Shown one piece after another: positions 2 to 17,912 of a stretch of 21,692 bases of DNA. Positions within the stretch are counted from its first letter, which is position 1. The number at the start of each line of letters is the position of its first letter. Source of the stretch: a virus; the IMG/VR virus record IMGVR_UViG_3300027969_000462, positions 1 through 21,692 of that record. One strand, written 5' to 3'. Under the pieces are notes generated by a model, which saw only the letters and a program-made list of their open reading frames with translations, searched no databases and had not been told where the DNA came from. The position numbers and the translations under genes were made by a program.

Positions 2-43
2 GAAGGTAAAGACATTCAGATAAGCGTCCAATGGCAGAAGTAA
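2..43 (+). CDS. Probable terminase small subunit, C-terminal end only
   Basis: The frame starting at base 2 is open from the window edge and reads EGKDIQISVQWQK before a TAA at 41-43. It overlaps the terminase large-subunit start by 13 bases. The position directly upstream of the large subunit, the coupled overlap and the short beta-like tail ending in VQWQK are what one expects of a small terminase subunit, which recognises the packaging site on phage DNA. Only 13 residues are visible, so the identity rests on position; another small gene could occupy this slot. Confidence 0.5.
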   Translation, partial: EGKDIQISVQWQK

Positions 44-1293
44 TTGAGATAGCCTACAAACCCAGAGAACAACAACTTGCTATCCATGAACTAATGGACA
101 GTAAGCGTTTTGGCGTTGTTGTTGCACATAGGCGCATGGGTAAAACAGTCTCTGCGATTAACCACTTAATCAAGGATGCTTTGCTCAACCAAAAGGAAGC
201 CCCTAGATACGCCTACATAGCCCCTACATACGGACAAGCTAAGAGGGTGGCATGGGACTACCTAGTTAAGTATGCAGAGCCTCTGGGTGGCACTAGCAAT
301 ATTTCAGAACTAAGGGTGGACTTCTGGGGTAGGCGCATCCAGTTGTTTGGCTCAGACAATCCAGAAACACTCCGAGGTCAGTATTTCGATGGGGTAATCC
401 TAGACGAGATTGGTGACCAAAATCCTAAGATATGGACAGACATAGTAAGACCTGCATTAGCTGACAGGAAAGGCTGGTGTCTTTTCATTGGTACGCCAAA
501 GGGACACAACCACTTTAAAGAGTTGCGAGATAGGGCAAAAACTGAGGAAGGTTGGGGTTTGCTAGAGTTCAAAGCCTCTGAGACGGGTGTAGTGGATGAT
601 GTAGAACTGAAGGCTGCCAAGAATGAGATGGGCGAGGATAAATACCGCCAAGAGTTTGAGTGTAGTTTTGATGCTGCTGTAGAAGGTTCTTACTATGGTC
701 AAATCCTCAATGAACTGGAAGAAAAGAAGCACATGCAGGAAATTCCCAGAGAAGAACTGAGTAGAACCTTTACTGCTTGGGACTTGGGAATGGGTGACTC
801 TACGTCTATCTGGGTGGCTCAACTGGTAGGTACTGAGGTGCGACTAATTGACTATTACGAGAATCATGGTGTAGGTTTAGACCACTACGTTAAGTGGATT
901 AAGGACAACGACTATCTCAAAGCAGAGCATATTCTGCCCCATGACGTTAGAGTCAGGGAACTTGGCACAGGTAAGAGCAGAATGGAAATGCTTGAGGAAT
1001 CAGGGCTAGAGGTCAAGATAGCCCCAAGGATGGGACTAGACGATGGCATCCAAGCAGTAAGACGATTGCTTCCAAGGTGCTGGTTTAATGTTCCACAGGT
1101 ACAGATAGGGCTGAACTGCCTGAGAAATTACCGCAGAGATTACGATGAAAAGCGTAAGATATTCTATGAGCGTCCGTTACATGATTGGTCTAGTCATGGC
1201 TCGGACTCATTCCGCTACTTAGCCCTTGGATTGGATGAAGGACATTCAACATGGTCTAAGCCTATTAACCAACTACCGAAATGGATTGTGTAA
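31..1293 (+). CDS. terL: Terminase large subunit (DNA-packaging ATPase/nuclease)
   Basis: Motor that pumps phage DNA through the portal into the prohead and cuts the concatemer. A 420-residue protein with an ATPase half and an RNase H-like nuclease half. Visible motifs: an adenine-binding-type PREQQ at 11-15, Walker A AHRRMGKT at 32-39, Walker B VILDEIGDQ at 122-130 (D125, E126) and a coupling motif LFIGTPKG at 151-158. The nuclease half shows AWDLGMGDST at 249-258 (D251), a possible metal-binding PHD at 303-305 and a last acidic residue D392 in HGSDSF. An in-frame TAA at 7-9 limits the start; ATG 31 has no strong ribosome site and probably depends on coupling to the overlapping upstream gene. 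It is at the short end for the family but both domains appear complete. All packaging genes lie together at this end. Confidence 0.95.
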   Translation: MAEVIEIAYKPREQQLAIHELMDSKRFGVVVAHRRMGKTVSAINHLIKDALLNQKEAPRYAYIAPTYGQAKRVAWDYLVKYAEPLGGTSNISELRVDFWGRRIQLFGSDNPETLRGQYFDGVILDEIGDQNPKIWTDIVRPALADRKGWCLFIGTPKGHNHFKELRDRAKTEEGWGLLEFKASETGVVDDVELKAAKNEMGEDKYRQEFECSFDAAVEGSYYGQILNELEEKKHMQEIPREELSRTFTAWDLGMGDSTSIWVAQLVGTEVRLIDYYENHGVGLDHYVKWIKDNDYLKAEHILPHDVRVRELGTGKSRMEMLEESGLEVKIAPRMGLDDGIQAVRRLLPRCWFNVPQVQIGLNCLRNYRRDYDEKRKIFYERPLHDWSSHGSDSFRYLALGLDEGHSTWSKPINQLPKWIV

Positions 1294-1469
1294 TGTACGT
1301 TCAAATGCAGGGCATAAATTTAGCCCCAAAAGTAAAAGAACTTGAAAAACGACTCGAAATGCTCGAAAATATGGTAAAAGAGTTACAATCCTCACCAAGA
1401 CCGAAACTTGGTCGCCCTCCAAAGGATGCACATGGAAACGAACGACTTGAAGTCGATACTGCAAGCTGA
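1293..1469 (+). CDS. Small coiled-coil protein with GRPPK motif
   Basis: Unrecognised 58-residue protein. The ATG at 1293 shares a base with the terminase stop (TAATG), and the 3' end overlaps the portal start at 1432 by 38 bases in another frame. Residues about 14-33 form a charged heptad-like helix (VKELEKRLEMLENMVKELQ), followed by a basic proline-rich stretch PRPKLGRPPK resembling an AT-hook core, and an acidic end. Similar small helix-plus-GRPPK proteins are, as far as I recall, common beside phage terminase or portal genes, but I know no assigned role. An upstream in-frame ATG at 1281 lies inside terL; TAATG reinitiation makes 1293 more likely. DNA or packaging-complex binding would be a guess. 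Confidence 0.65.
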   Translation: MYVQMQGINLAPKVKELEKRLEMLENMVKELQSSPRPKLGRPPKDAHGNERLEVDTAS

Positions 1470-3564
1470 GATTGATGACGCTATTGGCTTTATTGAGAGT
1501 GAAACAGTAGAGCAGCGCAAACAGGCTTTAGAAGCGTATCTCCGTCAACCTTATGGGAATGAGGTAGAAGGTAAGTCTTCAATCGTTACAGGTGAAGTTG
1601 CAGAAGCCATTGATGGTGCTTTGCCTTCCCTAGTCCGTATCTTTACAGGCTCAGATGATATTGTAGTTTTTGAGCCTCAAGGCCCGAAGGACGAAGCATC
1701 TGCAAAACAAGCGACACAGTATTGCAATTGGGTTTTTAGCCGTGATAACGAAGGCGTAGCCATTCTCCATGATTGGTTCAAGGATGCTCTGCTTCAAAAG
1801 AACGGCATCATTAAAGCCTATTGGGAAAACAAAGAAGACATTACCAAAGAGCGTTACTTTGACTTGTCTAACGATGAGTTAGCAATGCTAATGAGCGATG
1901 AGACTATGGAGATTGTCGAGCAAGATACGACAGAGTTCCCAATATTTGACCCAATGGGACAGCCAGTTATAGACCCTATGGGTATGCCTGTAATGGGTGC
2001 TACTCATAACGTAGTTGTTCAGCAAAAGAAGAAATCAGGCAAAGTAACGATTGAGAATGTCCCTCCAGAGGAGTTCTTGATTAGCAAGAAGGCTAGAACT
2101 ATTGCTGACTCACCTTTCGTAGCCCACAGGCAGATGTTGACTCGTAGCACATTGATTGCTATGGGTTTTAACAAAGACCAAGTAGAGAGTTTACAGATGG
2201 GTGATGCTTTGGCTTATACGCCAGAGCGTGTGGCTCGTTATGCTGCTGGTGAGCAACCTTACCAAGTTCAGACTGATGACCCTTCAATGCAAGAGATTGA
2301 AGTCTTTGAGTGTTATGTCAAAACTGATATAGATGGTAAAGGCATTGCTTCTCTGACTCAAGTTTTCTATGCGGGAAATGAGATTCTTCAAGATGAGAAG
2401 GGTAAAGAGATTATTGAGGAAACAGACTATGTTCCGTTCCATTCAATTTGTCCTATACCAATTCCGCACAAGTTCTTTGGTAACTCATTAGCTGACAGAA
2501 CAGTTGACCTACAGTTAATCAAGACCACTATCACTCGTCAGATGTTGGATAACTTATATCTGACAAACAATGCTCGTGTCGTGGCTGTGGAAGGTCAAGT
2601 AAACCTTGACGACTTGCTTACATCTACTGCTGGTGGTGTTATTCGTGCCAAGTCACCTAATGCCGTCCAACAGTTAGTTGTGCAGAACGTGGCAAATCAG
2701 GCTTTTCCAATGCTTCAGTATTTGGACACAGTACAGTCTAAGCGTACAGGTGTTAGTGATGCTTCACAGGGTTTAGACCCTTCTATCTTGCAGAACGTGA
2801 CTGCTGCTGCCGTAGCTTCTATGCAACAAGCTGGCGCAGGTAAGATTGAACTTATTGCTCGAATCTTTGCTGAGACAGGTGTTAAATCTTTGTTTAAAGG
2901 TATCTTGCACTTGCTTTGTAAGTACCAAGACAAGGCTCGCATAGTGCGTATGCGTGGTGAGTTCGTAGAGTTTGACCCTAGAACATGGGCTAACCAATAC
3001 GATGTTTCTATCAATGTAGGTTTAGGTGCTGGGAATCGTCAAGAGCAGATGGCTATGTTGTCGATGGTTCTTGCTAAACAAGAGCAGTTGATTGGTCAGT
3101 ATGGCCCTGCTAATCCTTACGTTTCACCTGCTCAGTATCGTGGCACTTTGGGACGCATGGTAGAGATTGCAGGGTTTAAAGATTCTGCTGAGTTCTACAA
3201 AGCAATTACGCCAGAGCAAGACCAAGCATTGAGTAATCCTCCTCCACAGCAACAGCAAATGCCCCCAGAGGTTCAAGCGTTGATGGCTAGAACACAGGCT
3301 GAGATACAAGCTAACCAAGCTAAAGCACAAGCTGATATGCAGATGCAACAACAGCAACAGCAAATTGATATGCAGATGGCGCAACAGAAAGCTGGACTTG
3401 AGATGCAGTTATTGCGTGAGAAGGAAGGTGCTAAGTTGCAATTAGAGCGTGAGAAACAACAGGCTTACTTTGCATTGAAACAACAAGAGTTTGAAGCAGA
3501 AGCACAGTTAAAAGCAATGAAAATTGGTGCTGGCATTACATCCAACGTAGAGATTAGAGGTTAA
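1432..3564 (+). CDS. Portal protein (head-tail connector)
   Basis: Forms the ring at one capsid vertex through which DNA enters and leaves, and nucleates head assembly. From ATG 1432 it is 710 residues, as large as P22-type podoviral portals. The conserved-looking stretch SSIVTGEVAEAIDGALPSLV at 49-68 is typical of portals in such phages. A loop at 173-187 repeats DPMGxPVx twice. The C-terminal region from about 598 to 697 is Gln-rich coiled coil (QQQQ runs, then EMQLLREKEGAKLQLEREKQ), reminiscent of the portal barrel region. Alternative starts are TTG 1408 and ATG 1426; AAGGA at 1422-1426 is well spaced only for 1432. It follows terL and the overlapping coiled-coil gene and precedes the scaffold by two genes. 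Confidence 0.9.
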   Translation: METNDLKSILQAEIDDAIGFIESETVEQRKQALEAYLRQPYGNEVEGKSSIVTGEVAEAIDGALPSLVRIFTGSDDIVVFEPQGPKDEASAKQATQYCNWVFSRDNEGVAILHDWFKDALLQKNGIIKAYWENKEDITKERYFDLSNDELAMLMSDETMEIVEQDTTEFPIFDPMGQPVIDPMGMPVMGATHNVVVQQKKKSGKVTIENVPPEEFLISKKARTIADSPFVAHRQMLTRSTLIAMGFNKDQVESLQMGDALAYTPERVARYAAGEQPYQVQTDDPSMQEIEVFECYVKTDIDGKGIASLTQVFYAGNEILQDEKGKEIIEETDYVPFHSICPIPIPHKFFGNSLADRTVDLQLIKTTITRQMLDNLYLTNNARVVAVEGQVNLDDLLTSTAGGVIRAKSPNAVQQLVVQNVANQAFPMLQYLDTVQSKRTGVSDASQGLDPSILQNVTAAAVASMQQAGAGKIELIARIFAETGVKSLFKGILHLLCKYQDKARIVRMRGEFVEFDPRTWANQYDVSINVGLGAGNRQEQMAMLSMVLAKQEQLIGQYGPANPYVSPAQYRGTLGRMVEIAGFKDSAEFYKAITPEQDQALSNPPPQQQQMPPEVQALMARTQAEIQANQAKAQADMQMQQQQQQIDMQMAQQKAGLEMQLLREKEGAKLQLEREKQQAYFALKQQEFEAEAQLKAMKIGAGITSNVEIRG

Positions 3565-3566
3565 TC

Positions 3567-6197
3567 ATGGCTATTTCTAATGCTTTGACATGGCAGTTAA
3601 ATAATGGTGGTAGTGCTGCTGATTTGTATGACAACATTCGTACATTCTTAGCTGCTAGTCCTGATGCGGCTACCACTCAGGCTGCTATGGCTCAGTATGG
3701 AATCTCTGGTGAAGACGTAGCTAATGCAACTGGCGGTAAATCAGGGGGTTTGCTTGAGGGCAATATCTTGGCAGGTGCTAGTTGGAATAGCCTTAACACA
3801 ACTTTAGGTGACCAATTAACACAAGCTACTGGACAAGCCACATCTAACTATGCCGTAGGTGGTGCAACTACTGCTGACACTCTTAACCAGTTAAACACAT
3901 ATCTAGCAGGTGGTGGTCAGTTTGACCCTAATGCTACTGTTTACTTACAAACTGGTGGTGTTGACTTTATTACTGGTGTAGATAAAGACACTGTTAAAAG
4001 TAACATTAACCAAATTGTGAAGACTTTGGGTGACCAAGGCGTTAATGTTGTTCTTACTGGTTCTCCTTATGCTAAGTCTATTGATGATGTAATCAATAAC
4101 AACTTTGACACTAAAGTTGACCAGATTTTTACTGACATTGCTAAAGAAAACAAGAATGTTGCTTTGGTAGGTATTCAAGGTGAAATTCTGCAAAACAAGA
4201 ATTTGTTAGTTGATGCTTTGCACACAAATGCAGAAGGTACAGCAATATATAACCAAGCTGTTATTGATTCGTTATCTCAGTTTAAGAATGAAGTTCCATC
4301 TAGCACTCCGCAAGCAATTGCTCAAGTACAGAAAACAAATACTGTAGCTACAACTCCTTCAGTAATTACTCAGGCTGCTGCTAGTCCTGTTGTTGCTCAG
4401 TCATTATCTGCACAAATACAAACACCAAACATTCAAGATTTAATTGCCTCTGGTGCATTGCAACCAAACCAAGCAACATTGATTGGTGATACTTACTACC
4501 AACCAGTTTATTCTCAAACTGGTTCTGGCATGGATGCACAGCTAGGACAACTTGAGAATGTCATTACCTATAAAGCCAGTGAAAACAAGGCTGGTGGCGA
4601 CATTAAATATTACTCTCCTACTGGTGAATATCAACAAACTACACAACAACAGAAAGTACCTTCATTCTTAGGTGGTTTAGCTGAAGCGTTTAATGACCCT
4701 GTTGTTCAAGCAGTTTTCTTGGGTTTAGGTGGTGGTGGTTTCTTAGGAAGTCAATTAGGTCTTACAGGCTCTACAGCACAAGCAGTCGGCACAGGTCTTT
4801 TCAAAGGTGGTGCTGCTGCTGCTGGTGGCGCAGATTTAGAAGACGCATTAAAAACTGCAATTCTTAGTGGTAGTTTAGTTTATGGTGGTAATGAATTAGC
4901 TAACTATTTAAATACGGCTTCTGGTGCAGTTTTAGGCGATGCTAGTGATATTGCAATACAAATGGCAGATAGTGGTAAAACATTAGCAGAAATTGAAACT
5001 GCATTAACAAACAGTGGATTTAGTGCAGATGTTGTTACAGAGTCTTTAAAAGATGCTGCTAATTCATTAGCACCAAAAGCTATAAATATTCCATCTGATG
5101 TTTCTCAATTAACAGACGGAGTAAATGTTGTTAGTCAACTTGCTACACCAACATTAAACAATGTATTAAGCACTATTGCCGCTACTACGCCAGTGGCTGT
5201 ATCAACACCAGTTACAGATGCAGGGACTGTTAAGGTTGCTGCGCCTAAAACTACTGGCATGACTACCCAAGAAGTTATAAACTTAGTAGAAAGCCAAATA
5301 GCGGCTAACGTAAAAACACCCGCTAATTTAGCTACTCAAACAATTACTTCTCAGAAACCTGCTACGTCTCAAGAAATTATCAATGCTATTACAGCAACAA
5401 TTCCTGCAATAACATCTACTCAAGCACAGAATATTGCTCAACAGGTAATTACAAGCAATAAGCCAGTAACGACTCAAGAAGTAATTAACGCTATTACAGC
5501 TACGTTGCCAGCTTTGACTACTGGCACAAGTTTGCAAACATCTACGCTACCGACTTCTACATTGGCAACTCAAACAATTACTGCACCAAAGACAGTGACT
5601 ACACAAGACATTGTTAACGCTATTATTGCTACAACACCCGCAGTAATTCCAACTTCAACTATACCGACTGCAACAGTTACTGCTGCTAGACCAGTTGTAA
5701 CACCAGAAGCTATAAACACTATTGCATCTACGTTAACTCCTACTGCTGTAACATCTACGCCAACAACAACTACACCAACAAAAGAAACTGACCCAATAAA
5801 GGTTGCTCAGTTAGCATTAACTGCGGCTGGTTTACTTGGTGCTGGTAGTGTTTTGTCTAATAATGGAACAACTGGTTTTGACGTAGTTCCAATTCCTGCA
5901 AGTTTTGGTAATCCTCCAGCACCTAGAGTTGCACCATATACACCATTGCCAGCAATTAACTTTGGTAATCGTAATCTACTCATTGGTACACAATGGGAGA
6001 AGTTCCTAGACCCTAACTATGGTCAAGTTCCTGCACCTGTTCAATATTCACAACCATCTAACCTAAGTTATAACGATTTAATGGGAATCTTGGGTAGCCA
6101 ACAAGGTATGCCATCTAGGTCTAACCTAAGTATCAATGACGTTATCTCTGGAATACAAAACCAATATGGACAAACACCTACTCGCACAATGGGCTAA
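3567..6197 (+). CDS. Large virion-associated protein with degenerate SGNH esterase-like domain
   Basis: An 876-residue protein of uncertain function between portal and scaffold; AGAGG at 3556-3560 serves ATG 3567. Residues about 66-240 look like an SGNH/GDSL hydrolase: a block I-like GAS with S72 in place of GDS, glycines 98-99 in block II, GGVD at 130-133 where GxND is expected, and DALH at 216-219 matching the DxxH block V. The oxyanion Asn is therefore missing, though Ser, Asp and His are kept. Residues 365-460 are Gly/Ala-rich and possibly membrane-active; 560-725 are Thr/Ala repeats; 771-830 are Pro-rich; 831-873 are a duplicated tail motif. Composition resembles internal or ejection proteins, so I infer a virion protein that may act on cell-surface acyl groups or has lost activity. 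It could equally be a structural domain only. Confidence 0.7.
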   Translation: MAISNALTWQLNNGGSAADLYDNIRTFLAASPDAATTQAAMAQYGISGEDVANATGGKSGGLLEGNILAGASWNSLNTTLGDQLTQATGQATSNYAVGGATTADTLNQLNTYLAGGGQFDPNATVYLQTGGVDFITGVDKDTVKSNINQIVKTLGDQGVNVVLTGSPYAKSIDDVINNNFDTKVDQIFTDIAKENKNVALVGIQGEILQNKNLLVDALHTNAEGTAIYNQAVIDSLSQFKNEVPSSTPQAIAQVQKTNTVATTPSVITQAAASPVVAQSLSAQIQTPNIQDLIASGALQPNQATLIGDTYYQPVYSQTGSGMDAQLGQLENVITYKASENKAGGDIKYYSPTGEYQQTTQQQKVPSFLGGLAEAFNDPVVQAVFLGLGGGGFLGSQLGLTGSTAQAVGTGLFKGGAAAAGGADLEDALKTAILSGSLVYGGNELANYLNTASGAVLGDASDIAIQMADSGKTLAEIETALTNSGFSADVVTESLKDAANSLAPKAINIPSDVSQLTDGVNVVSQLATPTLNNVLSTIAATTPVAVSTPVTDAGTVKVAAPKTTGMTTQEVINLVESQIAANVKTPANLATQTITSQKPATSQEIINAITATIPAITSTQAQNIAQQVITSNKPVTTQEVINAITATLPALTTGTSLQTSTLPTSTLATQTITAPKTVTTQDIVNAIIATTPAVIPTSTIPTATVTAARPVVTPEAINTIASTLTPTAVTSTPTTTTPTKETDPIKVAQLALTAAGLLGAGSVLSNNGTTGFDVVPIPASFGNPPAPRVAPYTPLPAINFGNRNLLIGTQWEKFLDPNYGQVPAPVQYSQPSNLSYNDLMGILGSQQGMPSRSNLSINDVISGIQNQYGQTPTRTMG
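5259..5741 (+). repeat. Degenerate tandem repeats in the SGNH-like protein
   Basis: Within residues 565-725 the motif TTQEVINAITATLPAL recurs about five times (starting near residues 565, 600, 635, 678 and 712), spaced 34-43 residues apart. Copies 1, 2 and 4 are preceded or followed by ATQTIT or AQQVIT plus xxKPVT linkers. Codon choice differs between copies, so these are old, diverged repeats rather than a recent duplication. Each unit reads as a short amphipathic helix joined by Thr/Pro-rich linkers. Confidence 0.8.
6057..6185 (+). repeat. Duplicated C-terminal motif (SNLSxND) of the SGNH-like protein
   Basis: Two tandem units of 21 and 22 residues (831-851 and 852-873) begin SNLSYNDLMGILGS and SNLSINDVISGIQN and end PSR and PTR. 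At the DNA level the 12-mer TCTAACCTAAGT is repeated exactly at 6057-6068 and 6120-6131, 63 bases apart. The second unit overlaps the start of the next gene. Confidence 0.85.
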
Positions 6198-6405
6198 AAA
6201 CCTATTAAATGATGACTTTTTCAAAGAAGTATTAAATAACTTGAAAAATGAACAGATTAGTGTGATAATTAACACAAGTGCAAGTGAAATTAACAGGCGT
6301 GAAAATGCTTATCAGCACATAAAGACTTTAGAACTGATTACAGGACACCTAGAAGGCTTAGCCTCGGAAACTGTAATTAAGGAAAAGAAGTGGAAAATTC
6401 TGTAG
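6166..6405 (+). CDS. Small helical phage protein upstream of scaffold
   Basis: Unnamed protein of 79 residues if started at ATG 6166, overlapping the end of the preceding gene by 32 bases; ATG 6136 would add ten residues. Neither start has a good ribosome site, and the MDKHLLAQWAKNLLNDDFF opening of the shorter form looks like a natural N-terminus. It is predicted all-helical and charged, with FFKEVLNNLKNEQ, a NRRENAYQHIKTLELITGHL helix and a basic KEKKWKIL end. Small proteins with this layout are, to my recollection, frequent between portal and coat genes of phages, and none has an assigned role. A part in head assembly is inferred from position only. Confidence 0.7.
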   Translation: MDKHLLAQWAKNLLNDDFFKEVLNNLKNEQISVIINTSASEINRRENAYQHIKTLELITGHLEGLASETVIKEKKWKIL

Positions 6406-6457: not shown

Positions 6458-7372
6458 ATGGAAAACACCAACCCTAATGGGAGTGAAAGCCTAGATGTAA
6501 ACCAAGCCGCTTCAGCGTTTGAAAGTCTGATGGGTGATTCTGAGGAAGCTGATAACAGCCAAGCCGAGGGTCAAATAGAGGAAATTCAAGAGACTGATGA
6601 AGTTGAATACGATGATGAACCAAAGCCTAGATATAAAGTCAAGGCATCTGGTGAGGAAGTTGAGGTAGAACTTGACGAACTTATCAAGGGTTATCAACAA
6701 GGTACGGACTACACAAAGAAGTCTCAGGCTCTAGCTGAACAACGTAAAGCAATTGAAGCTGAACGTAGTCACTTAGAGTATGTTAAACAAGAGCGACAGG
6801 CATACGCCCAGAAATTGCAAGCGTTGGATAGCTTCCTTACGCAGCAACATCAGGGTGTGGACTTAGAAGTTTTAAAGGAAACAGACCCTATCGGTTATGC
6901 GGTAGCGGTAGCTGAACAGAGCCAACGTGAGAAGCAGTTAGCAGTAGTCAGGAATGAACAGCAACGCATTGCCCAACAGCAACAAGCCGAGCAACAATCC
7001 CAACTGCAAAACCATCTCCGTCAAGAATCTGAGAAGCTAGTTAGTCTGATTCCTGAGTTAGCGACACCACAGGGTGATGCGGTTCGGAAACAAATCCGTG
7101 ACTATGCGAAGTCTGTAGGTTGGTCTGACCAAGAACTCAGTTCCGTGTATGACAGTCGTGCTGTGCATACCTTGTATAAGGCGATGAAGTATGAGCAACT
7201 TCAAAAGAGCAAACCTGAGTTAAATAAAAAACTCGTGGCTGCCCCTAAGATGATGCGTAGTGGTACTTCTGCACCTCCTGCAAGGTCTGCACAAGATAAA
7301 CAGGTTATGCAGAGGTTGCGTGAGACAGGAAAAGTCTCAGACGCAGCTAAAGCATTTGAACGATTCTTTTAA
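6458..7372 (+). CDS. Capsid scaffolding protein
   Basis: Temporary internal core on which coat protein assembles. The 304-residue protein directly precedes the coat gene, the usual scaffold position. The N-terminal 60 residues are strongly acidic (IEEIQETDEVEYDDEP), followed by a KVKASGEEVEVELDELIKGY segment and a long Gln/Glu/Arg-rich coiled coil at about 84-200. The C-terminus is basic and helical (KQVMQRLRETGKVSDAAKAF), the type of segment that binds coat protein in other scaffolds. The ribosome site is weak (GAG at 6448-6450, 7 bases before ATG). I see no protease motif in it or nearby. Confidence 0.85.
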   Translation: MENTNPNGSESLDVNQAASAFESLMGDSEEADNSQAEGQIEEIQETDEVEYDDEPKPRYKVKASGEEVEVELDELIKGYQQGTDYTKKSQALAEQRKAIEAERSHLEYVKQERQAYAQKLQALDSFLTQQHQGVDLEVLKETDPIGYAVAVAEQSQREKQLAVVRNEQQRIAQQQQAEQQSQLQNHLRQESEKLVSLIPELATPQGDAVRKQIRDYAKSVGWSDQELSSVYDSRAVHTLYKAMKYEQLQKSKPELNKKLVAAPKMMRSGTSAPPARSAQDKQVMQRLRETGKVSDAAKAFERFF

Positions 7373-9735: not shown

Positions 9736-10626
9736 ATGGCTGACTTACTGCCTCCGTGGACAATTGACTCGCTAGACAGTTTAAAGTCTAGCATTGATGA
9801 CTTAACACTCACACTCGATAGTTCACTCTACACAACTTCTGTAACCCTGTGGGATGCCTATGGGTCTGTAACTGCGTCTGCAAGCGTTACAGCAGATGGC
9901 ACGAGGATTCAGAGTGGTAGTGGGGCGGTAGATGGTACAGCGACTTTTGTGGCAGATGGCACAAGAATACAAAGCGCAAGTGCAAGCGTTACTTGTTCTG
10001 CTAGTTGTGTAGCTGATGCGACTAGAATTCAGTTTGTTTCTGGTTCTATTGATGCAAATGCTACTGTAACTGCTGACGCAATAAGAATTCAGTTAGCTAG
10101 TGGAAGTATTACTGCTAACGCTGATGTGGTGGCTGATGCTATTCGCATACAGACTGCAAGTGGTTCTATCACAGCAAATGCGGATGTAACTGCCCTTGGT
10201 GGAATCGTAGCAAATGCAGTAGCCTCAATAACTTCCAATGCGACTGTAGTTGCTGATGCTATCAGGGTACAACTAGCAAGTGGTGCAATTGATGGAAATG
10301 CAACAGTAACTGCTAATGGTGGTTTAGTTGTTGGCGCAGTTGCCAACATAGAAGCAAATGCTGATGTTATTGCTAGTGCATCTGCAATTTATGCAGGGGT
10401 AGCCTCGGTATCAGGTCTAGCTACAATTACGGCTTATGGTGTTATCTTGGGCGATAACTGGACTCCAGTACCACAAGACAATAACACTTGGACACCAGTT
10501 TCTACCGATAGCAATACTTGGACTACAGTTCCAAGTGATTCAAACACATGGACTCCAGTATCAGCTAACGATAATACATGGACAATTCAGACGCAAGGAA
10601 GTAATACATGGCTACGACAAAACTAA
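9736..10626 (+). CDS. Repeat-built virion protein (20-residue and 10-residue repeats)
   Basis: Function unknown; position between the Gp80-like gene and the nozzle suggests a tail or decoration component. The 296 residues have three parts. An N-terminal segment (13-32) is LDSLKSSIDDLTLTLDSSLY, and a related segment occurs in the nozzle protein. Residues 51-240 hold about nine and a half in-register 20-residue units of the kind VTADAIRIQLASGSITANAD. Residues 241-296 hold five and a half 10-residue units of the kind TWTPVSTDSN. The alternating small and hydrophobic residues suggest a beta-solenoid or stacked beta-roll. No signal peptide or membrane segment. The last codons overlap the next gene by 19 bases, and the next start codon lies inside the last repeat unit. 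Confidence 0.75.
   Translation: MADLLPPWTIDSLDSLKSSIDDLTLTLDSSLYTTSVTLWDAYGSVTASASVTADGTRIQSGSGAVDGTATFVADGTRIQSASASVTCSASCVADATRIQFVSGSIDANATVTADAIRIQLASGSITANADVVADAIRIQTASGSITANADVTALGGIVANAVASITSNATVVADAIRVQLASGAIDGNATVTANGGLVVGAVANIEANADVIASASAIYAGVASVSGLATITAYGVILGDNWTPVPQDNNTWTPVSTDSNTWTTVPSDSNTWTPVSANDNTWTIQTQGSNTWLRQN
9886..10455 (+). repeat. 60-bp (20-codon) tandem repeats
   Basis: About nine and a half consecutive units encode 20-residue repeats with no insertion or deletion, roughly VxADAIRIQxASGSITANAD. The central units, residues 111-130 and 131-150, are the most alike; units at 151-170 and 191-210 have a TALGGIV or TANGGLV variant. Constant length despite diverged sequence implies structural constraint. 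Confidence 0.9.
10456..10623 (+). repeat. 30-bp (10-codon) tandem repeats
   Basis: Five full units plus a partial one encode NWTPVPQDNN-like decapeptides: the conserved core is N-T-W-T with a variable VxxDS linker. The unit is exactly half the length of the preceding repeat. Later units use AAT-ACA-TGG or AAC-ACA-TGG for NTW, creating an out-of-frame ATG. Confidence 0.9.
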
Positions 10627-12424: not shown

Positions 12425-13321
12425 ATGGCTACTACCACTACGTCACAAATTGACCCAACAATCCAACCATATTTAGGTTATGGATTGCAACAGGCTCAAC
12501 GTCTGTATCAAAGCGGTGGCCCACAGTATTATGGTGGCCCAACCTTTGTTAGCCCTACAACTACCACTCAAACAGGATTACAGGCTTTAGAGGCTCGTGC
12601 TTCTTTGGGTAACCCACTACTACAGTCTGCACAGAATCAGTTGCAGAACACAGTTTCTGGTGGCTTCTTGGGTGGTAATCCATTCTTTCAAGGTGCGTTT
12701 CAACCTGCTGCACAAGCGGCAGAGACTCAGTTTAAAACAACTTTAGGTGATATTGCATCTAAGTCTAGCCTAGCAGGGCGTTATGGCTCTGGTGCTATGG
12801 GTTCTTTGCAAGATAGAGCTACTGGTCAGTTTGGTCAGAATTTAGCTAATACGGCTGGACAGTTGGCTTATCAGAACTATGCTGATGAAAGAGCAAGACA
12901 GCAAGCGGCTACGATGGCTGCGCCTCAAATGGCTTCTGCTGATTACCAAGACATTCAAAATATGTTGCAAGCTGGTCAAATCCGTGAAGGTTACCAAGGT
13001 CAGCAAATGCAAGGTGACATTGCTAAGTTTAACTTCTTGCAAAACCAACCACAACAGAACTTACAGAACTATCTATCGTTGGTATATGGCAATCCATTAG
13101 GCCGAGTAGCTTCTTCTACAACTAGCGGTGCTGCTGATACATCTACATTGCAAAATGCTTTAGGTTTGGCTGCTGTTGGCGGTGGACTGTATAAGAATTT
13201 AGGTGGCTCTACAGGTATTAGCAACTTGTGGAATAGTGGTGCTAACTGGCTAACAGGTGGTTCTAATATGGGGACTATTGATGCTAGTTATCCTGCCCTT
13301 GGCTCTAACTGGTGGGATTAA
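12425..13321 (+). CDS. Probable internal virion / DNA-ejection protein A
   Basis: A 298-residue Gln/Ala/Gly-rich protein, the first of three of similar style. The N-terminal third has LGYGLQQAQRLYQSG, YYGGPTFVSP and GLQALEARASLGNPLLQSA; the middle is long amphipathic helix with AETQFKTTLGDIASKS and YADERARQQAATMAAP; the C-terminal part is Gly-rich with LGLAAVGGGLYKNLGG and an aromatic end SNWWD. Such composition is usual for podoviral proteins ejected into the cell. AGGAG at 12415-12419 gives one of the best ribosome sites in the window, consistent with high expression. The next gene begins three bases after the stop. Tail-needle or other tail function is not excluded. Confidence 0.65.
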   Translation: MATTTTSQIDPTIQPYLGYGLQQAQRLYQSGGPQYYGGPTFVSPTTTTQTGLQALEARASLGNPLLQSAQNQLQNTVSGGFLGGNPFFQGAFQPAAQAAETQFKTTLGDIASKSSLAGRYGSGAMGSLQDRATGQFGQNLANTAGQLAYQNYADERARQQAATMAAPQMASADYQDIQNMLQAGQIREGYQGQQMQGDIAKFNFLQNQPQQNLQNYLSLVYGNPLGRVASSTTSGAADTSTLQNALGLAAVGGGLYKNLGGSTGISNLWNSGANWLTGGSNMGTIDASYPALGSNWWD

Positions 13322-13324
13322 AAC

Positions 13325-14647
13325 ATGGCTGGACTATTAGACATTTTTGGTACTAGCGGTGCAGACACAATGGGTCTGCTTGGTATGTCACCTGCTGACA
13401 TTCAAAGCAATCGTGATGATGCACAAGCACAAGCACTCTACGCACTAGCTGGCAGATTATTTGCAGGTGGTAACACAGGACAGTCTATTGCTGAAGGTTT
13501 GCAAGCTGGTCAGAAAGCCTACAAAGGCGGTATGCAGAATGTTTTGCAAGAACAACTACAGAATGTTCAATTGCAAGACATGATTCGTAAGCGTAAGTTA
13601 GAGCAACAAGCATTGGCTGAACAACAACGTATTCAAGGTGTTATCCAAGGTGCTGTAACCAAACCTCAAGAGATGTATGGTGAGGACATGATGGGTCAGC
13701 AAGTTGGTCAAGGAATGACTGCTGGTGGCTTTGATTTGCAACGAGCGATTCCTCAATTGATGTCTTCACCAGAAGGACGCAAAGCCTTGAATGAGTTGAT
13801 TGCTTCTCAGAAAGCAATGACAGGTGAAACATTGAAACTTGGTAAAAATGAACAACTTGTCAGGATAAACCCAATAACTCAAGCGTTTGAAGTTGTTGCT
13901 GGTGGTCAGAAACCTGCACAAATTGCAGAAAACCCATTTGATATTTTTTCTAATGACCCCAATGTTCCTCCTGCTTTGAGGGCAACTGCACAAAGATATA
14001 GCAAGAGCTATGCAACTGGTGCTATTGACGATGAAACTGCTGACAAGCGTTTTGCAGAATTGTCAAATAGGATTCAATCGTCTGAGCAATTTAAATTAGC
14101 ACAAGCGCAAACCAAAGCAATATCAGAAGGAAGTCAAGCAACAAGCAGAATGTTGGCTGAATTTAATATTGGTCAGAAACAAGAAAAAGCACAAGAAAAA
14201 GCTGATACCAAAACTCAGGCTAAACAGCAACTGTCTGACATTGTTGGTCAACTAAAAACAAGTTATGACACACTTCTTGAAGGTGGTGGCATTACAAGTA
14301 CGGGTGCTGGTGGTCGTGAAAATCTTGGTGCAAAGATGGGTACTTCACCAGTTGGTCAATTTATGGGTAGTGCGCTTGGAACTAAAAACCAAGAACAACG
14401 TCAAGTAATTGAACAAACTAGACCTTTGTTATTGAACTTAATTAAAGAAGCAACTGGAATGTCTGCGTCACAAATGAATTCAAATGCTGAAATGCAAATG
14501 TATTTAAAGGCTGCTACAGACCCCAAACTTAGCTATGAGGCTAACGTAACTGCTTTGCAAAACTTAGACAAAACATTTGGCCTTGGTCTTTTGAAGGATA
14601 TTACTCCTCCTAAAAAGAAGCAACAAGCAACATCTAGTGGGTGGTAA
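13325..14647 (+). CDS. Probable internal virion / DNA-ejection protein B
   Basis: A 440-residue, largely helical protein. The start GLLDIFGTSGADTMGLLGMS is followed by QALYALAGRLFAGGNTGQSI and a Gln-rich coiled coil at about 70-108 (QNVLQEQLQNVQLQDMIRKR). A central region has AATAQRYSKSY-like helix around RATAQRYSKSYATGAIDDET, another Lys/Gln-rich helix at 280-305, and a conserved-looking EQTRPLLLNLIKEATGMSAS toward the end. No enzyme motif is seen. Composition, length and place between ejection-type genes and the fibre suggest a protein stored in the head and ejected with the DNA. Stop codon lies just before the next gene's start. Confidence 0.65.
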   Translation: MAGLLDIFGTSGADTMGLLGMSPADIQSNRDDAQAQALYALAGRLFAGGNTGQSIAEGLQAGQKAYKGGMQNVLQEQLQNVQLQDMIRKRKLEQQALAEQQRIQGVIQGAVTKPQEMYGEDMMGQQVGQGMTAGGFDLQRAIPQLMSSPEGRKALNELIASQKAMTGETLKLGKNEQLVRINPITQAFEVVAGGQKPAQIAENPFDIFSNDPNVPPALRATAQRYSKSYATGAIDDETADKRFAELSNRIQSSEQFKLAQAQTKAISEGSQATSRMLAEFNIGQKQEKAQEKADTKTQAKQQLSDIVGQLKTSYDTLLEGGGITSTGAGGRENLGAKMGTSPVGQFMGSALGTKNQEQRQVIEQTRPLLLNLIKEATGMSASQMNSNAEMQMYLKAATDPKLSYEANVTALQNLDKTFGLGLLKDITPPKKKQQATSSGW

Positions 14648-14649
14648 AC

Positions 14650-16278
14650 ATGGCTGATATTACAGTAACCTTTAATGATGGTACTTCTCATGTTTATAGA
14701 AATGCCCCAGAAAGTCTTACTAAAGACGATGTAATTTCTCGCATTGCTAAAGACTTTTCTGGTAAGCAGATTACTTCTCTTGATAGAGTTGCTGGTGGAC
14801 AAAAGTTATCTGGTGAAGAAGTTTTAACAGGTGCTGTTACAAACTTTCCTAGTTCTGTTGGCTCAATGCTTGGCGATATATACCAAGCTGTTACAAGTCC
14901 TATTCAAACAACTAAGGCTGTTTTAGACCTTGGTGCTGGCATATTGCAAAACGCATTACCAGAGCGACTTGTGCAAGCAGTAGGTGAAGACAAAGCAAGC
15001 CGTGACTTAGCTTCTAAAGTTGGTCAGCACTATGTAGAGCGTTATGGTAGCGTAGAAGGTGCTAAACGAGCATTGGCTACTGACCCTGCTGGAGTTATGG
15101 CAGACCTATCTACTGTTCTTACAGGCGGTGCTATGTTGCCTACAAGGGCTGCACCTGCATTGGCTACTGCTGCTCGTGCTGTTGACCCATTGATGTTAGC
15201 GGCTCGTGCTACTGGTAAAGCCGTAGATATTACTGGCTCTGTTGCAAAACCATTATTGGGTATGCAAACAGGCGCAGGTACAGAAGCTATTGGTCAAGCA
15301 TATAAAGCTGGAAAAGTAGGCGGTGAAACTTCTGAAATGTTTAAAGCAAATATGCGTGGAGAAGTTCCACAAATTGAAGTTTTAGATGCGGCTAAACAAA
15401 ACTTGTCAGCTATGGCTGAACAACGTCAGACTGCTTATCGTACAGAAATGGCAAATATTAGCAAAGATAAATCTGTTTTATCTTTTGATGGAATTGATAA
15501 AGCCATTGACAATGCTATGAACAAAGTTACTTATAAAGGTCAAATTGTTAATGAAGAAGCATTTGACAAAGTAGTTAAAGCAAAAGCAGAAATTGATGCT
15601 TGGAAGCAACTAGACCCTGCTGAGTTTCACACTCCAGAAGGTCTTGATAAGTTAAAACAAAAAGTTGGCTCTGTTCTTGAGAAAATTCCTTTTGAGCAAA
15701 AAACATCATTGACTGCTGTTAATGAGGTTTATAACGGCATTAAAAACGAGATTAAAAAACAAGCACCTACATACGCAAAAACAATGCAAGCGTATTCTGA
15801 GGCTACAGATTTAATTCGTGAAATTGAAAGAACATTGTCGCAAGGTAAAAATGCTTCTGTAGATACGCAAATGCGTAAATTACAGTCAATTATGCGTAAC
15901 AATGTAAATACAAACTTTGGTCAGCGTTTAAGTTTGGCTCAACAATTAGAACAAGCTGGTGGTAAACAAATGCTTCCAGCTTTGGCTGGTCAAGCATTAA
16001 ATACATATACGCCTCGTGGACTACAAGGTGCATCGTCAATTCCTACTTCTTTAATGGCTGGTAGTTTATTTGGTAATGTTGCTGTTCCGTTATCATTGGC
16101 TACTTCATCTCCTCGTTTGATGGGTGAAGCGGCTTATGGCGCAGGTCGTGTCGCTAAAGGCTTGCTTGACGTACAGAACAGGATGCCAAACATAGACTAT
16201 CCAACAATGTTTAACTTGCTTTATCAAGCTGAACAACCTAGAAAAATTGACCTAACTGGAATGGCTAACCCCGACTAA
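14650..16278 (+). CDS. Probable internal virion / DNA-ejection protein C
   Basis: A 542-residue protein from ATG 14650; the in-frame GTG at 14641 overlaps the previous stop and is less likely. The N-terminal domain, [20 protein letters not shown] then [14 protein letters not shown], is a small module I recognise from the front of several phage internal proteins, some of which continue into a lytic transglycosylase; here no such catalytic motif follows. The rest is helical with Ala-rich segments near 150-195 and Lys/Gln-rich coiled coil at 250-420. A hydrophobic Gly/Ala/Ser stretch near 465-510 ([16 protein letters not shown]) could insert into a membrane during ejection. Function is inferred from composition and context. 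Confidence 0.65.
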
Positions 16279-16286
16279 GGACTGAT

Positions 16287-17912
16287 ATGCCCAAGACAAA
16301 GATTAGTGAGTGGAGTTCGACTCCCGCAAATAATACAGACATTGACAGTATCAATATCGCAGAGGGTTGTGCGCCTTCTGGAATTAACGATGCTATCCGT
16401 GAGTTAATGTCACAAGTTAAAGACTTGTACGCTGGAACTAGCGGAGACATAATTGCCGTGGCTGCTGGCGGCACTGGTGTTGGAACAAGCACTGGCTCTG
16501 GCAATAACGTATTGTCAACATCGCCAACACTTGTTACTCCTGTCCTTGGAACACCTACTAGCGCAACTTTAACAAACGCTACAGGACTTCCAATTGCCAC
16601 AGGCGTATCTGGCCTAGGTACTGGTGTTGCCACTGCTTTGGCTGTGAATGTGGGTTCTGCTGGCGCACCTTTAGTCAATGGTGGTGTTCTAGGAACTCCA
16701 TCTAGCGGTACTGCTACAAACCTTACAGGCTTGCCAATTTCAACTGGTGTGTCAGGTTTGGGTACTGGTGTAGCTACATTTTTAGCCACTCCATCAAGTG
16801 CTAACTTAGCGGCTGCATTGACTGATGAAACTGGTAGCGGTGCTAATGTCTTTGCAACTAGCCCAACATTAGTTACGCCTATTCTTGGCACACCAACAAG
16901 TGCAACATTAACCAATGCTACAGGCTTGCCACTAAGCACAGGCGTAACTGGAACTCTGCCAGTAGCAAATGGTGGTACTGGACTAACAACAACTCCTGCT
17001 AATGGTGCTTTGGATATTGGTAATGGAACAGGCTTTACTCGTACAACATTGACAGCGGGTTCTAACGTAACAATTACAAATGCAAGTGGTGCTATCACGA
17101 TTGCGGCTTCTGGTGGTGGAACACCTGCTGGCTCAAACACACAAGTCCAGTTTAACAACTCAGGTGCGTTTGGTGCTTCTGCTAACTTAACATACGATGG
17201 TACAACATTAACAAGTACAACCGCAACTGCATCAGGTATTGCTTTAAATAGCACTACAGATGGTCGAGCAAACATCGTATTTAAAAGTGGTGGAACTCAA
17301 TATGGCATTGTCGGACTATCAGGCGCAGTTTTGGGAACTAGCGCAACAGATATGGCTCTGTTTGCAGAAACTGGTGGTGCAATCAAGTTTTTTACCAATG
17401 GTACATCCTCAAACGCATCGACTATTAATCGGTATGGTTTAGGCATTGGTGCGGCAGTTCCATCATCTGGTATTGGCATCACATTCCCCGCAAGTCAGTC
17501 AGATTCATCAAACGCTAATACGCTAGATGACTATGAAGAAGGCGATTGGACACCAAGCGCAGAATTTAGCGGTGGTAATGGAACACGAACAAATGTGGAC
17601 TGCCGAGGTAAATACACAAAGATTGGCAATCTAGTAACTGTCAATTTTTATACGCAAGTAACAAAAGGAAATGGTAGCGGTAACTTATCTTTTAGCGGTT
17701 TGCCATTTAGTTCTGCTAGTTTTGCTTTTGGCACTCCTATGTCAACTTGGAATATGACAGGTGTAAATAATGCTTTGGCATATGTTTCTGGAGGTACAAG
17801 TTTTACTTGTTACTTTAGTGGTTCTGGCTCATCAACATTGGCCTACATTACTAGTGCAGAAATGCAAACCACAAATGCTGTCGTTACTGGCAGTTTCTCA
17901 TACAGAGTTTAA
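16287..17912 (+). CDS. Tail fibre / receptor-binding protein
   Basis: Trimeric-type fibre that should contact the host surface. The 541 residues start with a particle-attachment-like domain ([20 protein letters not shown], then [15 protein letters not shown], 5-41). A Gly/Thr/Ser shaft with [20 protein letters not shown] repeats follows at 79-222. Then come [31 protein letters not shown] (284-303) and a head domain from about 411 with [15 protein letters not shown] and [23 protein letters not shown] at 16277-16281 serves ATG 16287. No intramolecular chaperone or hydrolase motif is seen. The large C-terminal part is the likely specificity region. Confidence 0.9.
16521..16952 (+). repeat. Shaft repeats in the tail fibre
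   Basis: Three related units (16521-16634, 16677-16778, 16860-16952) encode [20 protein letters not shown]-like sequence; the first and third also share SPTLVTP, and the first two share SGLGTGVAT. Codons differ at many synonymous positions, which argues for old repeats. Confidence 0.85.

Follow-up and report, generated by a model that had tools for sequence, protein, structure and literature searches.

What is a hydrolase-like domain doing in a very large protein encoded among the head genes of a phage, and is it a working enzyme or the remnant of one? The question is raised by a stretch of viral DNA from the IMG/VR collection (record IMGVR_UViG_3300027969_000462, positions 1 to 21,692; the whole 21,692-nt stretch is referred to hereafter as the window), in which an 876-aa protein was originally predicted, from the letters alone, to carry a degenerate SGNH esterase-like domain.

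Gene context and domain layout

Family matches to the flanking genes (PF23899 and phrog_3927, Table 1) agree with the placement of the gene between portal and scaffold in the original prediction, and the capsid protein of the window is likewise of the SU10 type (PF17236, E 1.1e-98). The ORF starts with an ATG two bases past the portal stop codon, with an AGAGG-like ribosome site ahead of it. It was also described as no standard head-gene neighbour, and this agrees with the portal-related isolates Pseudomonas phage tf, Methylophilales phage Venkman and Pelagibacter phage HTVC106P, as well as with record MW202481, all of which lack the slot protein and show the order portal, small gene, scaffold. 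In records MW202710 and MW202462 (Manatee Spring) the slot is occupied by a hypothetical protein.

Table 1. Position of the 876-aa protein, its segments and active-site blocks, and the neighbouring genes in the window
Feature	Coordinates	Strand	Remarks
TerL	31-1293		upstream of SU10-type portal
SU10-type portal	1408..3564	+	upstream neighbour; PF23899, E 4.2e-216
Whole slot protein, 876 aa	3567..6197	+	between portal and scaffold genes
N-terminal segment, residues 1-57, A-rich	3567..3737	+	common to relatives in other contexts
SGNH hydrolase-fold domain (type A), residues 58-245	3738..4301	+	Pfam, profile, AF2 model
Block I, G70-A71-S72-W73; S72 nucleophile candidate	3774..3785	+	S72 and W73 74/74; A71 73/74
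Block II, Gly99; oxyanion backbone amide candidate	3861..3863	+	74/74
Block III, G130-G131-V132-D133; Val132 for canonical Asn	3954..3965	+	V132 73/74
Block V, D216-A-L-H219	4212..4223	+	D216 73/74; H219 74/74
Predicted small beta domain, residues ~289-360	4431..4646	+	pLDDT 82-93
Gly/Ala-rich predicted helical segment, residues 386-500	4722..5066	+	18% Gly, 17% Ala
Thr-rich degenerate repeats, residues 501-760	5067..5846	+	23.5% Thr; predicted largely disordered
Conserved C-terminal region, residues 761-876	5847..6194	+	proposed virion docking region
Small ORF, likely start ATG 6166	6136..6405	+	downstream of slot protein; weak phrog_8161 match
Head scaffolding protein	6458..7372	+	downstream neighbour; phrog_3927, E 5.6e-54

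The part of the protein that follows the SGNH domain had been described as 600 residues of repeats. This holds for the Gly/Ala-rich and Thr-rich segments, while the small beta domain and the conserved C-terminus had been missed. The Thr-rich repeats are degenerate, with a single short tandem array (5750-5781) detectable at the DNA level, and the A-rich N-terminal segment appears helical when judged by eye. The predicted structure of residues 246-876 has a mean pLDDT of 58 and gave no structural match above Z 6.5; matches to RecX were short and helical and were discarded. No recognised fold and no convincing structural match was obtained for the beta domain, and a structure search with the low-confidence model of residues 761-876 returned no fold match. 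There was no match of the protein to a PHROG ejection family, and Pfam matches up to E 1, a level that very remote homology could escape, included no MuF domain.

The last 10 codons of the gene overlap the likely start of the small downstream gene, whose ATG and ribosome site are encoded within the codons of the conserved terminal motif SGIQNQYGQ, an arrangement that suggests translational coupling. Because of this overlap, the invariance of SGIQNQYGQ is at most partial evidence for docking; two further conserved C-terminal motifs, GTQWEKFL and SYNDLM, lie upstream of it and are unaffected.

The SGNH domain and its active site

The proposed SGNH-like fold, with Ser, Asp and His in the expected order, is borne out by three lines of evidence. 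Residues 71-227 score above the curated cut-off of Pfam Lipase_GDSL (28.0 bits, with 23.6 required; E 2.9e-6); SGNH esterases in the PDB are hit at E 3.2e-5 by a profile built from 41 homologous domains, which sets GGVD opposite the GAND of CrmE10; and an AF2 model of residues 51-245 (pLDDT 91.1) is predicted to adopt the fold of TesA (4jgg; Z 18.0, rmsd 2.5 Å over 162 residues, 19% identity). The likeness to TesA and lysophospholipase L1-like hydrolases (4jgg, 1ivn and CrmE10, 7c23) extends over the whole domain, at Z 14.8-18.0 among the matches listed, and includes the order of the Ser-Asp-His triad and the block II Gly. These enzymes, however, have GDS in block I and Asn in block III where the window domain has GAS and Val, and they are single-domain cellular enzymes, whereas the window domain is part of a large phage protein.

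The domain is genuine and kept by purifying selection. Its median pN/pS is 0.185 at a median pairwise pS of 0.49, compared with 0.108 (pS 0.48) for the portal and 0.292 for the C-terminal region in the same contigs; since its pS equals that of the portal, the conservation does not simply reflect youth. Together with the Pfam score, the PDB profile match and the AF2 model, this rules out a chance match or a pseudogene.

Conservation of the active site was assessed in 74 distinct domains from IMG/VR, comprising 73 of type A, the window type, and the divergent L188, which is the exception wherever the one deviating domain can be identified. The motif positions originally given for G70-A71-S72, G130-G131-V132-D133, D216 and H219 proved exact, the unusual GAS and GGVD blocks are real, and S72, D216 and H219 do not vary freely (Table 1). 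G130, G131 and D133 are invariant (74/74), while Asn74, two residues past the nucleophile, and Gln128, ahead of block III, are found in 73/74 domains, being invariant in type A but different in L188.

The block III Asn that is absent from type A is present in three sister domains: L188 reads GDSW/GGND, and L277 and L278 read GASW/GAND, compared with GASW/GGVD in type A. This motif series, from L188 through L277/L278 to type A, implies that Asp71 was lost before Asn132, and suggests stepwise intermediates along a possible path to the type A active site. In type B, to which these sister domains belong, block V is longer as well (DESGFH). Canonical members of the SGNH superfamily employ the side chain of the block III Asn, and in the SGNH enzyme SaOatA its replacement by Ala abolishes activity, so Val132 may mark either a dead or a specialised site; the SASA, AlgJ/AlgX and PatB1 families of SGNH enzymes nevertheless work without this Asn (PMC9487903). 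Given their invariance in type A and their difference in L188, Asn74 and Gln128 are candidate replacement donors. The absence of the block III Asn may be tolerated with one of these side chains, or the two backbone amides alone, stabilising the oxyanion. A site in which Asn has given way to Val while the triad persists, with surviving intermediates (L188, L277), would amount to a natural experiment in replacing a residue usually deemed essential.

The slot-protein family and the spread of the domain

The last ~116 residues of the 876-aa protein define a family of slot proteins between portal and scaffold. In 91 distinct members with the C-terminal region and an unbroken N-terminus, ranging from 421 to 1018 residues, an SU10-type portal lies upstream in 89 loci and a small ORF downstream in 87. 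An SGNH domain is carried by 36 of the 91, distributed over four lineages: 32 proteins have type A, two have type D (L033, L038), and types C (L192, Lipase_GDSL_2, E 1.5e-17) and B (L188) occur once each. At least four SGNH lineages are thus found near the same N-terminal position of a core protein that works without them, and the absence of the domain from 55/91 relatives indicates that it is not needed for a structural role. Pfam scans of the relatives without SGNH brought no further credible enzyme to light at this position. Five of these (L226, L236, L243, L245, L249) gave sub-threshold matches to DUF4214 at their N-termini, possibly another payload or an adaptor.

Type A was also encountered with three C-termini other than that of the window. 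A class of 23 type A proteins (class 1; 1015-1399 aa) ends in ...GLAYGNQDLGLFL. Their genes follow the tail genes and directly precede a homologue of the window protein encoded at 13325-14647 (L108, E 1.1e-22), in the very position taken in the window by gene 12425-13321, which belongs to a PHROG annotated as 'DNA ejection protein'. Comparison of the class 1 C-terminus with this ejection protein gave no profile similarity, both profiles being of low diversity, and homology to the window-type C-terminus was tested for and not found. Class 2 comprises eight type A proteins ending in ...RDWYTSQYGA, encoded between the capsid gene upstream and a tail fibre gene downstream. The contigs of class 1 (G001, and G003 via its identical relative L044) and class 2 (G006, G007) encode a phrog_267 capsid protein and gave no SU10_MCP match; the nearest named relatives of this capsid type are Anabaena phage A-4L and Pf-WMP3-like phages, at ~28-34% identity. 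By eye, sulfotransferase-like and adenylylsulfate-kinase-type P-loop ORFs are visible at 3364-4990 of L044, just upstream of its 1308-residue SGNH protein.

In L069 and L070 the type A domain comes after TerL, in one protein with ART-PolyVal (E 1.5e-11 and 3.1e-11, respectively), an ADP-ribosyltransferase domain typical of injected polyvalent proteins; TerS and TerL of L069 were identified by family search, and in L073 the ORF ahead of the type A domain has the length of that TerL. The idea that these ART-SGNH genes occupy the portal-scaffold slot was rejected, given their place behind TerL in a different group of phages. The type B sister domains of L277 (2387-7447) and L278 (2672-7444) reside in proteins of 1591-1687 residues that also match ASCH and GP88 and are encoded between TerL and a weakly portal-like ORF. 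The intermediate GAS/GAND active site is thus housed inside polyvalent-type proteins.

Mapping these contexts onto the SGNH tree requires at least 10 changes of context label, and the well-supported branches on their own require 3-4 in each of the three main contexts. Only the number of changes was used, because the root is unreliable owing to the long branches of types ART and B. Judged by these sequence relationships, the domain is one payload recombined among several virion-module proteins. The epithet "degenerate" does not fit a domain that is conserved, under purifying selection, mobile and accompanied by stepwise intermediates; having moved repeatedly between phage proteins that probably travel in the virion, it looks more like optional equipment delivered to the host than like a gene in decay. 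The profile search of genome contigs yielded no bacterial homologue of the domain, and hence no host origin or prophage context, while INPHARED contained a single weak homologue that matches the C-terminal part alone.

Possible roles and known counterparts

We suggest, with a probability of roughly one half for the whole chain of events, that an SU10-like podovirus carries the 876-aa protein as a minor component of its virion, docked in the particle and probably ejected with the DNA, and that the SGNH domain of the protein cleaves an ester. The esterase originally envisaged, borne in the capsid or ejected and altered in its oxyanion hole, is also the reading best supported by gene context and domain partners. 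Residues 761-876 would dock the protein to a conserved part of the head, the simplest candidate being the portal encoded upstream, as suggested by the strict gene order and by their conservation. The Gly/Ala-rich helical segment and the flexible Thr-rich repeats may tether this dock to the optional N-terminal payload, consistent with the disorder predicted for the repeats. The protein would then leave the particle with the DNA at infection; this step is suggested by the company the domain keeps, namely ART-PolyVal, ASCH/GP88 and internal-protein neighbours, such partners and positions being the criteria by which polyvalent proteins are inferred to be packaged and injected (PMC5512222). Catalysis by residues 58-245 is predicted from fold and triad, and the acyl- or acetyl-hydrolase would cleave an ester in an envelope glycan (O-acetyl), a lipid or the cell interior, aiding entry or takeover. 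Peptidoglycan or envelope O-acetyl groups, lipids and thioesters all fall within the known range of the fold and are candidate substrates. More tentatively, and with rather less confidence, the mobile SGNH domain with its rebuilt oxyanion hole can be seen as a virion-delivered effector of unrelated phages, loaded by lineage-specific tails either alone or with ADP-ribosyltransferase-type domains.

Many phage tail SGNH enzymes deacetylate host surface polysaccharide. An esterase exposed on the portal, neck or head and acting in this way at adsorption would agree with the SGNH-bearing tail fibre and esterase proteins among BFVD matches, with the annotation of an SGNH-type esterase in the tail spike of phage tf, and with the adjacency of type A genes to tail fibre genes in two contexts, which speaks against the ejected hydrolase insofar as it fits a surface role also. 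We nevertheless consider this unlikely: the window gene lies in the head module, between portal and scaffold, and not at a tail fibre or spike location, a separate fibre-like gene is present at 16287-17912, neither trimeric fibre nor depolymerase features could be recognised in the 876-aa protein, and the ART-fused relatives and ASCH/GP88 sister domains point to internal delivery.

Similarly improbable in our estimation is a catalytically dead fold retained as a binding or structural module, even though block III Asn has become Val and block I Asp has become Ala in all type A copies, and the protein that carries the domain is large, flexible and structural. Against it stand the invariance of S72, G99 and H219 and the near-invariance of D216 (73/74) at a pS of ~0.49 across at least four contexts, the many core proteins that dispense with the domain, and the activity of other SGNH families that lack the same Asn. 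Finally, the strict gene position would suit a factor aiding portal/scaffold assembly, in which the SGNH insert is a neutral hitch-hiker, but purifying selection on the domain and the presence of four SGNH lineages in one slot argue against neutrality and make this explanation very improbable.

The proposed ejected hydrolase has partial counterparts in several known systems. The gene of SPP1 gp7 occupies the same kind of position, in the order portal - X - scaffold/capsid. This order is common to the window and to MuF minor head proteins and polymorphic toxins, where an exchangeable enzyme domain is likewise mounted on a conserved virion part (PMC5576092); in the window protein, however, the payload sits at the N-terminus and the conserved part at the C-terminus, a MuF Pfam match is lacking, and no immunity gene was noticed beside it. 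Phage polyvalent proteins (Iyer et al. 2017, PMC5512222) are alike in their position in the terminase/portal module and, if the present reading holds, in their inferred injection, and relatives of the window domain are fused to their ART-PolyVal, ASCH and GP88 domains. Polyvalent proteins have at least two disparate enzyme domains, as is the case in L069, L070, L277 and L278, whereas Pfam and PHROG searches recognised the SGNH domain alone in the window protein. Ejection proteins of the T7/P22 type (PMC8954989), such as T7 gp16 with its transglycosylase domain, also place an enzyme on a large protein whose proposed ejection would aid entry, but no sequence or fold homology to them was found, and the window has candidate ejection genes of its own at 12425-16278. 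These are three consecutive genes, the first matching phrog_4287 'DNA ejection protein', and they seem to form an ejection-protein set distinct from the slot protein.

That phage tail proteins can contain SGNH domains, and injected phage proteins enzyme domains, was already known. What appears new, within the open-access literature, is an SGNH payload in head-module proteins that is distributed over several lineage-specific C-termini, together with its link to ART-PolyVal and the conserved replacement of Asn by Val. The main text of the polyvalent survey (PMC5512222) mentions neither SGNH nor lipase nor esterase, and in the accessible open-access literature the pairing of polyvalent proteins with SGNH led, by title and abstract, only to work on Pectobacterium phages and on a polysaccharide-deacetylating tail fibre. 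If correct, our reading would add an esterase to the known injected phage enzymes, in uncultivated phages of many metagenomes, and the C-terminal tails would become candidate signals for loading enzymes into a phage head.

Two further features of the window were noted. A tail-region protein encoded at 9736-10626 consists of ~20-residue repeats of the IRIQxASGSITANADV type, and a 336-codon open frame at 16265-17275 (-), antisense to the fibre-like gene, is probably a by-product of the repetitive sequence of that gene.
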